From Lentisphaerota bacterium (lineage in GTDB: Bacteria > Verrucomicrobiota > Lentisphaeria > Victivallales > Victivallaceae): a DNA stretch of 48,559 bases. The notes under the pieces are model-generated. The model saw nothing but the letters and a program-made list of their open reading frames with translations, searched no databases and was not told the origin of the DNA. Every line of letters starts with the position of its first letter. Position 1 is the first letter of the stretch. The position numbers and the translations under genes were made by a program. The stretch is from assembly GCA_015061525.1 (NCBI GenBank), contig SUWK01000013.1, forward strand, positions 1 to 48,559, written 5' to 3'. Positions 1 through 39,375 of this stretch are shown piece after piece.

Positions 1-249
1 CGTGTGAAGCGCAGCGTTGCTGCATGAAGCGTTTGCCTGCGGCAAACATGAAGCACTTGCTTTGCAAGTATGATGCGGCGTATTTTTGTGAGCGGCACTC
101 TCCGTATGTTTCCGTACACATCCGTACTGATCCGTACAAATAAAGCGTTTGAAAAAATCACGGCAGAGTTGCGAGGTGACCACCAACAGTTCTATTAATG
201 TGAAAAATCTGTTCTCTCTTTTTTCCGGATCAAACTGGATACTTCTCAT
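1..249 (-). CDS. Pseudopilin (prepilin-type N-terminal methylation domain), 3' part beyond the window
   Basis: An ATG at 249 with GGAG nine bases upstream opens a frame of 83 codons that runs without a stop to the window edge. Residues 16-24 read FFTLIELLV, the prepilin peptidase/N-methylation motif of type IV pilin-like and type II secretion pseudopilins. Directly after LLVV the protein does not continue with the usual hydrophobic helix but with [12 protein letters not shown], encoded by a repeat also present in the pseudopilin gene at 38236-39345. It follows a DUF4434 gene by 43 bases and is probably cotranscribed with it. By analogy with the complete copy, a second leader and the true pilin body should lie to the left of the window. 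Function is inferred; only the leader and insert are visible. Confidence 0.75.
   Translation of the reverse strand, partial: MRSIQFDPEKRENRFFTLIELLVVTSQLCRDFFKRFICTDQYGCVRKHTESAAHKNTPHHTCKASASCLPQANASCSNAALHT
4..76. repeat. Cluster of three mini-hairpins with heptamer spacers (inside copy 1)
   Basis: Three perfect stem-loops with 3-base loops follow one another: GCAGC-gtt-GCTGC (11-23), GTTTGCC-tgc-GGCAAAC (31-47) and ACTTGC-ttt-GCAAGT (55-69). They are separated and flanked by a conserved heptamer, GTGAAGC or ATGAAGC or ATGATGC, at 4-10, 24-30, 48-54 and 70-76. The same cluster occurs at 39088-39160. Confidence 0.85.
101..140. repeat. Four tandem 10-bp units (TCCGTANNNN)
   Basis: Units start at 101, 111, 121 and 131, each TCCGTA followed by four variable bases. 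The period of 10 is not a multiple of three although the stretch is inside an open reading frame, so the periodicity is at the DNA or RNA level rather than the protein level. Repeated at 39185-39224 in the second copy. Confidence 0.85.
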
Positions 250-16827: not shown

Positions 16828-16870
16828 AATTACAACTCCCTTTCGCTTGCTGTTTATATTTTGTTGTTAT

Positions 16871-17138
16871 CCTGAATTTTGTGAAAAATCTAACCTGCGG
16901 TGGCACCTTGCGGGTAATCTCGCGCCTTGCTCCTGCGCCGGAGCAGTCGAGTACATAGTACACTCCTGCACCGTACTCGTCGCAAAACACGACCTTCCTC
17001 CGCAATCCATCCACCGGTTGGATCAAACCCGTACCGGCTTGGTTGACAAATCACAACTTATGTGATACGTTTTATACACTGATAGAAATGTTTGTTTATA
17101 ACCTCATGCTTCCGTTTCACAAAATTTGGGACATTACC
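16871..17138 (-). repeat. MITE-like repeat, right copy (inverted)
   Basis: About 268 bp, the reverse complement of the copy at 1464-1754 with the core nearly identical. Its ends carry CCTGAATTTTGTGAAA (inner, 16871-16886) and, on the other strand, CCCAAATTTTGTGAAA (outer), so terminal inverted repeats are clear here. It lacks the 32 bases found in the left copy. A 92-codon open frame runs through it from within rpe, but the indel shifts the frame between copies, so I treat it as non-coding. It explains the 16828-17162 gene-free stretch. Confidence 0.85.
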
Positions 17139-29060: not shown

Positions 29061-30014
29061 TTATAATACCGTAATTGAAGCAACTTTTACTATCACGGCA
29101 CCATTATTTCCGAAACGACCGGTATATTTCCCGGAAACTTTGACCTTTTTGTTTTCATTGGCACTCAACAGTGCCGGATCATCGGCAAAAACAAATCCGA
29201 GATTGAATCCGTTGGGTGCTGAAAGCAGAACATAAGAAGTTTCTTTCGTCGTTCCGAACTTCCATTTGGTAAGGATACCTTCCAACGTTACATCATCATT
29301 AACCGCAGGTGCGGCTTTTTCCTCTTTGGCTGGTGCGGGTGTCTCTGCGGCGGCAGCTTTCTCTTTCACCGGAGCCGGAGTTTCTGCGGCGGCAGCTTTC
29401 TCTTTTACCGGAGCCGGAGTTTCTGCGGCGGCAGTTTTCTCTTTCACCGGAGCCGGAGTTTCTGCGGCAGCAGCTTTCTCTTTCACCGGAGCCGGAGTTT
29501 CTGCGGCGGCAGCTTTCTCCGTTTTCTCTGCTCCAGGCACGATGACATTGCCGTTTTCATCAAATTTTGACGGATCATATTTCACCAGAAACGCCGCCGC
29601 GTACACTCTGACACCGGCAGATTCCGGAACTGCGATACGCACCCAGCCGTTGCGCCGCTCATCCATCTTTCTCACCACCGTCCCTTTGGGCAGAGTTCCC
29701 AGACAGGGAGCCTTGACACTCATCGCAGTCCGCATATTCAGCTCACCGGAAAGCACTCCGTCTTTACCGATACGTGCTTCAGAAACGTAAACGGAGAGAT
29801 TTTCCGGCGCACCGATCTCCACCCAGTTATTGACCACCCGGTAGATCTTCACTTCCGTCTTGTCAGCGATCTTCCCGACTACCGGATTCTGAAGTCCCGG
29901 CCCCAAACGCAAGTTGAGCAAATCAGCATTGACCGTACCGGAAACGGCAGCAGTTTCCGCAGCTCCGGCAGCGACTGAAGCTGCCGCCAAAAGAGCAAAA
30001 AACAATTTATTCAT
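29061..30014 (-). CDS. Secreted SH3-domain protein with 13-residue tandem repeats
   Basis: 317 residues from the ATG at 30014, which has GGAG ten bases upstream; a longer frame adds 11 residues but no better site. A signal peptide (about 1-20, ending GAAETA) precedes two SH3b-like domains. The first has LLNLRLGPGLQNPVVGKI; the second has LNMRTAMSVKAPCLGTLPKG. A linker of five 13-residue repeats, KEKAAAAETPAPV, leads to a small OB-like domain (VTLEGILTKWKFGTTKETSY). Such bacterial SH3 domains often bind peptidoglycan. Its role here is unknown. It diverges from xerC/D. Confidence 0.75.
   Translation of the reverse strand: MNKLFFALLAAASVAAGAAETAAVSGTVNADLLNLRLGPGLQNPVVGKIADKTEVKIYRVVNNWVEIGAPENLSVYVSEARIGKDGVLSGELNMRTAMSVKAPCLGTLPKGTVVRKMDERRNGWVRIAVPESAGVRVYAAAFLVKYDPSKFDENGNVIVPGAEKTEKAAAAETPAPVKEKAAAAETPAPVKEKTAAAETPAPVKEKAAAAETPAPVKEKAAAAETPAPAKEEKAAPAVNDDVTLEGILTKWKFGTTKETSYVLLSAPNGFNLGFVFADDPALLSANENKKVKVSGKYTGRFGNNGAVIVKVASITVL
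29332..29526 (-). repeat. Five tandem 39-bp repeats inside the SH3 protein gene
   Basis: The core TCTGCGG recurs at 29344, 29383, 29422, 29461 and 29500, an exact 39-bp period with few substitutions. The units encode the Ala/Lys/Pro linker. Such arrays change copy number by slippage, so linker length may vary between strains. Confidence 0.9.
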
Positions 30015-30048
30015 GGTAAATATTCTCCTTTCAATTGATTTTTTCACA

Positions 30049-38235: not shown

Positions 38236-39345
38236 TTAAAATTCAGCCCAATTCTCCACATTGTGACCGACACCGAAGGTGTTGTCGCCATTGATCAGCA
38301 TGATATTGCCGTGCCGGGTCTGAACCGAACCGTCACATGTGGTGACATTGATACCTGCCGATGCCGGAATATCCGCTTCACCAGCATAGGGTCCGGGATT
38401 GCCTCCGGAAGGATGACGATAACCCAAACGGTAATAACAAACATAATCGGCAAAAGCGTAATATGTATCACCGTCAACGTGTTCCGTAAACAGGATCGTG
38501 CTGCTGGCTTTGTTGATCGCCGAACCCTTGCAGCTGCCCTCTTTATACAAATTGGCATTGAATGTGGGTGCAGTTTTGGCGACCACCGTGATATTGGCGA
38601 TATAGCTCATGCCGTCTTTGCCGCCGGTATATTCGCCTTTGCCAGCCGGATTGGAAGCACTCGGACACTGGAACATCGGCACTTCTGCAGTTTTGTAAAA
38701 CAGCGATTCCCCTGTTCCCGCCTTGCCTTGCGCACTGCTGTACCCAAGATAAGGCAGCAATTTCGGTGCCCAGCCATAGTAACTGCTGTGGACATAGTAA
38801 TCGCAATCGTTCAAATACTGGGCATTTGCCAAGCCCAACTGTTTCATATTGTTGACACAGCTGGCACTGCGCCCGCGTTCACGGGCAGAGTTGAGTGCCG
38901 GAAGCAGAATTGCAGCCAGAATCGCAATAATGGCGATGACCACCAGCAATTCGATCAAGGTAAATGAGTGTGCGGGGGACAAGGAAAACTTTTTTTCACG
39001 GGAAAAAAAGTTTTCCTTTTCCCCCGCGCCCCCTTTCTCTTTCAAAAAAAGCGGGATACTTTTTGATGATAAATCATGCTCCGCCGTGTGAAACGCAGCG
39101 TTGCTGCATGAAGCGTTTGCCTGCGGCAAACATAAAGCACTTGCTTTGCAAGTATGATGCGGCGTATTTTTGTGAGCGGCACTCTCCGTATGTTTCCGTA
39201 CACATCCGTACTGATCCGTACAAATAAAGCGTTTGAAAAAATCACGGCAGAGTTGTGAGGTGACAACCAATAATTCGATCAAAGTAAATTTCCTGCTGAT
39301 AAAATTGAATAGCTGACTGCTTTTTAATGTACTGTGCCTTTTCAT
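38236..39345 (-). CDS. Pseudopilin (DUF1559-type) with a duplicated leader split by an in-frame insert
   Basis: 369 residues from the ATG at 39345 (GGAG nine bases upstream; a TTG three codons earlier is less likely). The motif FTLIELLVV occurs twice. After the first (about residues 20-28) comes an insert of about 100 residues starting TSQLCRDFF; then the second copy runs into the normal helix [15 protein letters not shown]. The rest is a typical Lentisphaeria/Planctomycetes pseudopilin: [28 protein letters not shown], and a C-terminal [11 protein letters not shown]. The -1 residue before either Phe is not Gly (Lys and Ser). Which leader is processed, or whether the product works, is unclear. 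It is in an operon with glycosidase-like genes. Confidence 0.85.
38970..39029. repeat. Large in-frame hairpin within the pseudopilin gene
   Basis: Left arm 38970-38997 and right arm 39002-39029 pair over 28 positions with one mismatch and one G-T pair around a 4-base loop; the inner 15 bp pair perfectly (GGAAAACTTTTTTTC against its complement). It encodes [10 protein letters not shown] and lies just before the second leader. Confidence 0.9.
39085..39264 (-). repeat. Leader-inserted repeat, copy 2
   Basis: Matches 1-180 with three differences. It contains the same three mini-hairpins (39095-39153) and four 10-bp units (39185-39224). Its 5' edge, in coding sense, falls directly after the LLVV codons of the first leader. 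Confidence 0.9.
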
Positions 39346-39375
39346 TCTTTTCAACTCCTTTTTTTGATCAAAAAC

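Follow-up and report, generated by a model that had tools for sequence, protein, structure and literature searches.

Candidate family of palindrome-rich, protein-coding mobile modules at the prepilin leader FTLIELLVV in a genus of Lentisphaeria

Here we describe a repeated insert found within the leaders of pilin genes in a gut bacterium of the Lentisphaeria. The window, meaning the whole stretch of DNA that we analyzed (48,559 nucleotides), lies on contig 28 of the source genome (called G000; 2.83 Mb, 122 contigs, approximately 90% complete), and it holds two pseudopilin-type genes on the minus strand whose leaders both encode FTLIELLVV. The complete gene (38236..39354) matches PF07963 (N_methyl) and PF07596 (DUF1559-type) and scores above the cut-off of TIGR02532. 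Its layout is a leader 1 (39262..39288, located by the leader pattern), a 324-bp insert, a second FTLIELLVV (38942-38964) and then the usual hydrophobic helix, and of the two leaders it is the second on which the best profile matches fall (N_methyl at residues 129-151, TIGR02532 at residues 131-151). We call the insert a module (38939..39262); it has an A-type head, a B2-type tail and its own leader copy at the end, the spacing from leader to leader is a multiple of three (324 = 3 × 108) and there is no stop in the pilin frame. Leader 2 (38938..38964), which the leader pattern and the junction analysis below place as module-borne to approximately position 23, is where the mature pilin is predicted to start. 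The B2 tail contains a long palindrome (38972..39027; approximately 25 pairs and a 4-base loop, DNA fold –28.5 kcal/mol, z –6.28), and in the A-type part there are three short hairpins in series with GCTTYATG between them (39089..39152), which together have no overall folding excess over shuffles (z –0.54). The other gene is the 5' part of a pseudopilin-type gene that runs off the contig end (1..270; open frame of 90 aa, with FTLIELLVV at residues 23-31, where TIGR02532 gives a partial match under the cut-off). Its leader 1 (178..204, located by alignment and leader pattern) has gene-specific synonymous codons and is followed by an A-type module that is truncated by the contig end (1..178; 98.3% identical to 39085-39262 on the minus strand); the module is cut at position 1, and the second leader and mature pilin lie beyond it.

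When we aligned the two genes at FTLIELLVV (window 1-204 against 39085-39288, both on the minus strand), we found that 17/23 leader positions are equal (74%) and that 177/180 bases after the leader are equal (98.3%), while upstream of the leader only 23/66 bases are equal, which is the background level for unrelated sequence. The peptides ahead of the leader are also unlike (MKRRNEIMRSIQFDPEKRENRF in the edge gene as compared to the 22 residues of the complete gene, with its TTG start taken as Met). From its leader peptide and the upstream gene, the edge gene is taken to be a different pilin, and because module pieces occur at approximately 35 places in G000, a chance match is excluded. The original prediction, made from the window alone, held that the two genes carry the same insert at the same leader position and that a recent, site-specific spread and not gene duplication put it there; the first of these claims is borne out by the alignment, and since the whole genes are not near-identical and are unrelated upstream of the leader, duplication does not explain the match. 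It also proposed looking for a long hairpin and a second leader past the contig end, and both are present in the complete gene, as the palindrome and the 324-bp leader-to-leader spacing described above.

We counted leaders with a pattern that covers every possible coding of FTLIELLV; it found 124 leaders in G000, whereas the reversed control pattern found 0. Module sequence is present in G000 as 65 matching pieces at the approximately 35 places. Across the loci, counted in stretches fetched around matches, there are 83 leader groups: 37 are empty genes, 28 contain between two and four consecutive leaders, and the other 18 are contig-cut or have a single leader recognized. We estimate 39-46 filled pilin genes in G000, a range that arises because broken genes were possibly counted twice. 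The modules are therefore seen in tandem, with as many as four leaders in succession. The copy count and the leader fraction that the original prediction called for agree with a single target: in several genomes, each of the 76 module heads for which the upstream sequence is long enough lies behind a prepilin leader, and one more head lies at a contig edge. Some of these head loci were fetched via the leader pattern; those fetched via module similarity alone agree. The modules are approximately 140-360 bp long and palindrome-rich, and they fall into several classes. The A class has the head CACCTCACAACTCTGCCG... and a 231-bp unit (17 A heads in G000), the B class has the head AAGCACTGTTATCTCATCATGG... 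and is 180 bp and longer, and further heads in relatives begin GAGT..., GGAT... or TACT.... There is also an extragenic, hairpin-only B-type relative without head or leader (G000:C113:32773-32860, L367), which lies beside a row of GCTTCA-type hairpins; this locus is a possible source of module interiors.

To identify where the modules begin and end, we compared synonymous entropy at each leader position between leader 1 of filled genes and the leaders of empty genes. Leader 1 of B-type genes is nearly as diverse as empty leaders at position 3 (0.96 as compared to 0.98), position 6 (1.44 and 1.54) and position 21 (1.38 and 1.46). At position 24, empty genes have an entropy of 1.91, B-type genes 0.00 and A-type genes 1.40; the values for position 27, in the same order, are 1.74, 0.66 and 0.22. 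The drop at position 24 (B) or 27 (A) indicates a sharp left junction, seen in 29 and 28 contexts, respectively. B-type modules thus begin directly after the GT of the first Val codon, and A-type modules after that of the second. On the right, the junction is graded: the 5' end of leader 2 resembles the module, from position 24 on leader 2 resembles the gene, and between these parts one grades into the other. The 3' tail of leader 2 in B-type genes matches leader 1 of its own gene more than expected (126 matches as compared to 80 expected, p 0.001), and the same is true in relatives (133 as compared to 98, p 0.02). We found no terminal inverted repeat by eye in the junction alignments, and the duplicated leader tail is variable in length.

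Orthologs with and without a module show the two states of a site. Many G000 pilins have orthologs in a sister species, G028 (RGIG5530). The empty site at G000:C114 reads ATGAAAAAACAT TTCACTTTGATCGAACTGCTGGT AGTTATC, and its ortholog at G028:C33 starts and ends in the same way but is longer by exactly 195 bp (TTCACTTTGATCGAATTGCTGGT, then AAGC...TTTACTTTAATAGAACTGCTGGT, then AGTTATT); conserved genes lie on both sides of this pair. A second ortholog pair with two-sided synteny is L280/L029. The filled or empty state differs in approximately 8 of the 13 G000-G028 ortholog pairs examined, in both directions. Together with the sharp left junction and the 76/76 heads that follow a leader, these flanked ortholog pairs support recent site-specific spread. 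The observation behind the original prediction is real, and its reading holds as far as it went. It did not extend to the several module types, tandem stacking, the 3' leader copy, frame maintenance or the graded right junction.

The modules keep the reading frame of the pilin. Among distinct leader-to-leader spacings, 22/24 values are multiples of 3, and in 69 distinct modules there are 0 stops in the pilin frame as compared to 76-228 in each of the other five frames. For A-type modules alone, approximately 7 stops would be expected in the pilin frame and none is seen. Changes in A-type modules relative to the consensus comprise 39 synonymous and 121 nonsynonymous changes of 138 and 454 possible, which gives a dN/dS of approximately 0.94 by a count made without a tree. 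In filled/empty pairs, the dN/dS of the mature pilins is 0.08-0.14, like that of empty/empty pairs. These sequence comparisons suggest that translation passes through the inserts, that the pilins remain functional and that the inserted peptide is without importance; neutral insert amino acids next to a constrained mature pilin are the pattern expected for a discarded leader. Copies of leader 1 that lie ahead of modules in several relatives (L174, L175, L196) read FTLIKLL, FTLIELP or FTLIESL, and these amino-acid changes fit relaxed constraint because those copies no longer start the mature protein. G000 has one Peptidase_A24 (prepilin peptidase) gene, of 290 aa, with CxxC pairs of the usual bacterial type. 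Functional module-borne leaders have Ala or Ser ahead of Phe (RSA, KSA, AHS). The distance from the first in-frame Met to the cleavage site is more than 60 residues in 27 of the 60 Met-bearing G000 pilins, with a maximum of 204, as compared to at most 31 residues in other families of the order.

Module DNA is present in approximately 28/33 genomes of the same genus, and there are weak matches in 1/2 other genera of the family. In contrast, a DNA-level search found module DNA in 0/24 genomes of other families in the order, and among 103 leaders in three genomes of other families no tandem leaders lie close together. The named relatives with modules are Lentisphaeria metagenome-assembled genomes, many of which come from the gut of sheep, yak and roe deer. 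Best matches between A-type modules of different species are 94-98% identical, while synonymous sites of orthologous pilins differ between G000 and G028 at approximately 50-75%. This difference points to recent spread, between species too, in a comparison in which most species are represented by the module and not by an ortholog. We found no module match in phage, plasmid and IMG/VR viral-contig collections, and carriage by phage or plasmid was rejected as a candidate.

Taken together, these data suggest, with good probability in our view, that the modules are a family of short, palindrome-rich, protein-coding mobile elements whose sole target is the prepilin leader FTLIELLVV and which are tolerated via peptidase cleavage at the last leader. 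In the proposed cycle, a module would insert right after the GT of one of the leader's two Val codons, where the junctions place it, and would stay in frame without a stop and close with its own leader copy, as seen in the loci above. This copy would restore a full leader ahead of the IAIIAILA helix, an arrangement that filled genes display, and the new leader would be a target again, which the tandem stacks exhibit. The single prepilin peptidase is predicted to cleave before the last FTLIELLVV, so that the upstream part would be discarded and the mature pilin left unchanged. More tentatively, the process may be a copy-in from a fixed nick or cut after ...CTNGT that is closed by the module's 3' leader pairing with the target leader, which would produce a sharp left junction and a graded right one. 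A broader claim, on which we are evenly divided, is that the modules would represent a class of mobile element healed post-translationally by the host signal peptidase: the 3' leader copy would make the module a disposable leader peptide, able to spread harmlessly through dozens of functional secretion-filament genes without splicing of its own.

Several points weigh against the mobile-module reading. One chain with a 181-bp spacing is a frameshift, and one filled gene (G000:C18:43071-43435, L041) has a stop a few codons after the second leader and is probably a broken pilin; some filled genes may thus be broken. In this genus, a residue other than Gly often precedes Phe, empty genes included, a point that bears on the specificity of the peptidase there, and cleavage at the last leader is itself a prediction from sequence. 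Later exchange between leaders could also have produced the graded right junction. No mobility enzyme was found in searches for Y1, reverse transcriptase (RT) and IS110, with tyrosine and serine recombinases, integron integrase and endonucleases outside the search. Finally, the data are short-read metagenome-assembled genomes whose contigs often end inside modules.

An alternative that we consider unlikely, although possible, is that a transposase or site-specific recombinase acts in trans (HUH/RAYT, IS110, a large serine recombinase with a GT core, or an integron-like enzyme acting on the hairpins), with the modules as its non-autonomous cassettes. The sharp post-GT junction in both module classes, the adjoining hairpin, the regenerated target and the tandem arrays are what such an enzyme would leave, but a leader 2 that is often hybrid is not expected of conservative recombination, and the enzymes that we searched for do not follow the modules. 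Y1_Tnp gives one distant match in G000 and no match in the majority of module-rich relatives of the same genus; DEDD_Tnp_IS110 is absent from G000 and present in 4/23 other same-genus genomes searched; and there is no RVT_1 in G000. Single absences are weak at approximately 90% completeness, and the genus-wide pattern is stronger. IS200/RAYT, reverse transcriptase and IS110 were rejected as movers, as none co-occurs with the modules, and an RNA intron is disfavored since the reading frame is kept.

The same lack of a Y1, RT or IS110 enzyme that tracks with the modules would be natural if they moved by ordinary homologous recombination or gene conversion among the approximately 80 paralogous pilin leaders, without a dedicated enzyme. 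The leader is common to donor and target, and the right junction is graded within it, as such exchange would have it. Left crossovers should scatter, however, yet the diversity of leader 1 persists up to position 21, and from position 24 or 27 on the module does not vary; moreover, the downstream pilin codons are not co-converted and the homology is just 23 bp at approximately 75% identity. We regard this explanation as distinctly doubtful.

An equally doubtful explanation holds that the modules are not parasites and that a palindrome before the leader is useful, through mRNA structure or the timing of translation or export, so that modules are regulatory leader extensions. It is kept alive mainly by palindromes at the leaders of empty genes. 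Many module-free pilin genes of the genus have a perfect palindrome with its center 5 bases ahead of the leader, and the TTYAC... codons of the leader itself form the 3' arm. The arm on the upstream side covaries with the synonymous variant of the same gene (p 3e-5 at position 3 and p 7e-4 at position 7, as compared to p 1 in a shifted control). Stems of at least 7 are present in 47/122 leaders, almost never in shuffles and in 2/30 leaders of other families. These palindromes are rarer in filled genes than in empty ones (6/35 as compared to 27/65, p 0.015), and module-borne leaders adjoin hairpins too. Selection may act on the leader palindrome as a structure in RNA or DNA, and modules may take its place or make use of it. 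On the other hand, the module state flips between sister species, the module amino acids are unconstrained and structure varies widely among module types, none of which a regulatory role would favor. In G000 and G028, a second palindrome with a shared arm (R p1 R' p2 R) is often found ahead of the leader (for example, L300, L313 and L127; 45 nt before the leader).

It is very improbable that gene duplication, or a chimera formed between repeats in assembly, accounts for the modules: contigs often stop in modules and the data are assembled from metagenomes, but duplication is already refuted by the unrelated upstream sequence of the window genes and by the filled and empty orthologs, whose two-sided synteny also speaks against a chimera, and the gene-specific leader-codon junctions recur in several genomes from different samples and studies.

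We found no description of such modules in the open-access literature. Rickettsia palindromic elements (RPEs) are palindromic mobile repeats of approximately 150 bp that lie in frame in protein genes and are translated, with several families per genome (PMC10969869). The modules resemble them in lying in frame in open reading frames, from which translation is deduced, and in palindromic structure, as in the B2 hairpin (z –6.3), although the A-type short hairpins lack an overall excess. Whereas RPEs enter unrelated genes at various places, modules lie at fixed bases of prepilin leaders only; they also carry a leader copy, stack in tandem and would be removable by a host peptidase. We do not class the modules as RPEs because no insertion in unrelated genes was found (76/76 heads after a leader), in a comparison with RPEs by description. 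By analogy, the modules seem to work like an RPE specialized on one coding motif that brings a protease site with it.

REP/RAYT (repetitive extragenic palindromes and their associated tyrosine transposases) and other IS200/IS605-derived palindromes are hairpins by a fixed short target that occur in many copies without classical terminal repeats. The modules are likewise many-copy, with a hairpin beside a fixed short target; they differ in being intragenic and coding, with the boundary after GT in the leader and no Y1 transposase that tracks with them. Inteins insert in a conserved coding site and have a product removable after translation, but modules have no self-splicing, and removal would be by prepilin peptidase and at the N-terminus only. 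Integron cassettes stack in tandem, each with its own recombination site, and modules also stack, each bringing a recombination-like site with hairpins; however, there is no array promoter and there are no cassette genes, the site is a coding leader and the modules are scattered over dozens of genes. Perfect inverted repeats are also known within the coding regions of mitochondrial genes of Nematomorpha (PMC6649704). These coding palindromes resemble the leader-crossing palindromes seen here, but they are part of conserved protein sequence and not inserted modules. The modules lack the fixed-length target duplication of classical miniature inverted-repeat transposable elements and, as judged by eye in the junction alignments, their terminal inverted repeat, and the absence of RVT_1 in the approximately 90% complete G000 sets them apart from retroelements (target-primed, group II or diversity-generating). 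The host genes have the N-terminal methylation motif of type IV pilins and pseudopilins, and prepilin peptidase is present in the genome.

If the mobile-module reading is true, selfish DNA colonizes a fixed, essential coding motif where a host protease trims the product, and it brings a fresh cut site. This would explain the very long pilin leader peptides of the genus (up to approximately 200 residues, while those of the order's other families do not exceed 31) and the breakage of these genomes during assembly. The modules would also serve to probe, in a natural setting, how specific prepilin peptidase is and how a mobile element tolerates every synonymous form of its target, and the filled or empty state of orthologs would be a ready clock for recent movement. 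Many contigs of G000 and its relatives start or stop inside a module; since contigs often break there, modules limit the assembly of these genomes.

The window holds no known RNA families. It has other repeats that lie apart from the modules. An intergenic repeat of approximately 300 bp is present at 1466-1772 and 16861-17136 in inverted orientation, with copies in at least 8 other G000 loci. At 29311-29519, a gene for an SH3_3 protein (29061-30047) contains four in-register copies of a 39-bp direct repeat.
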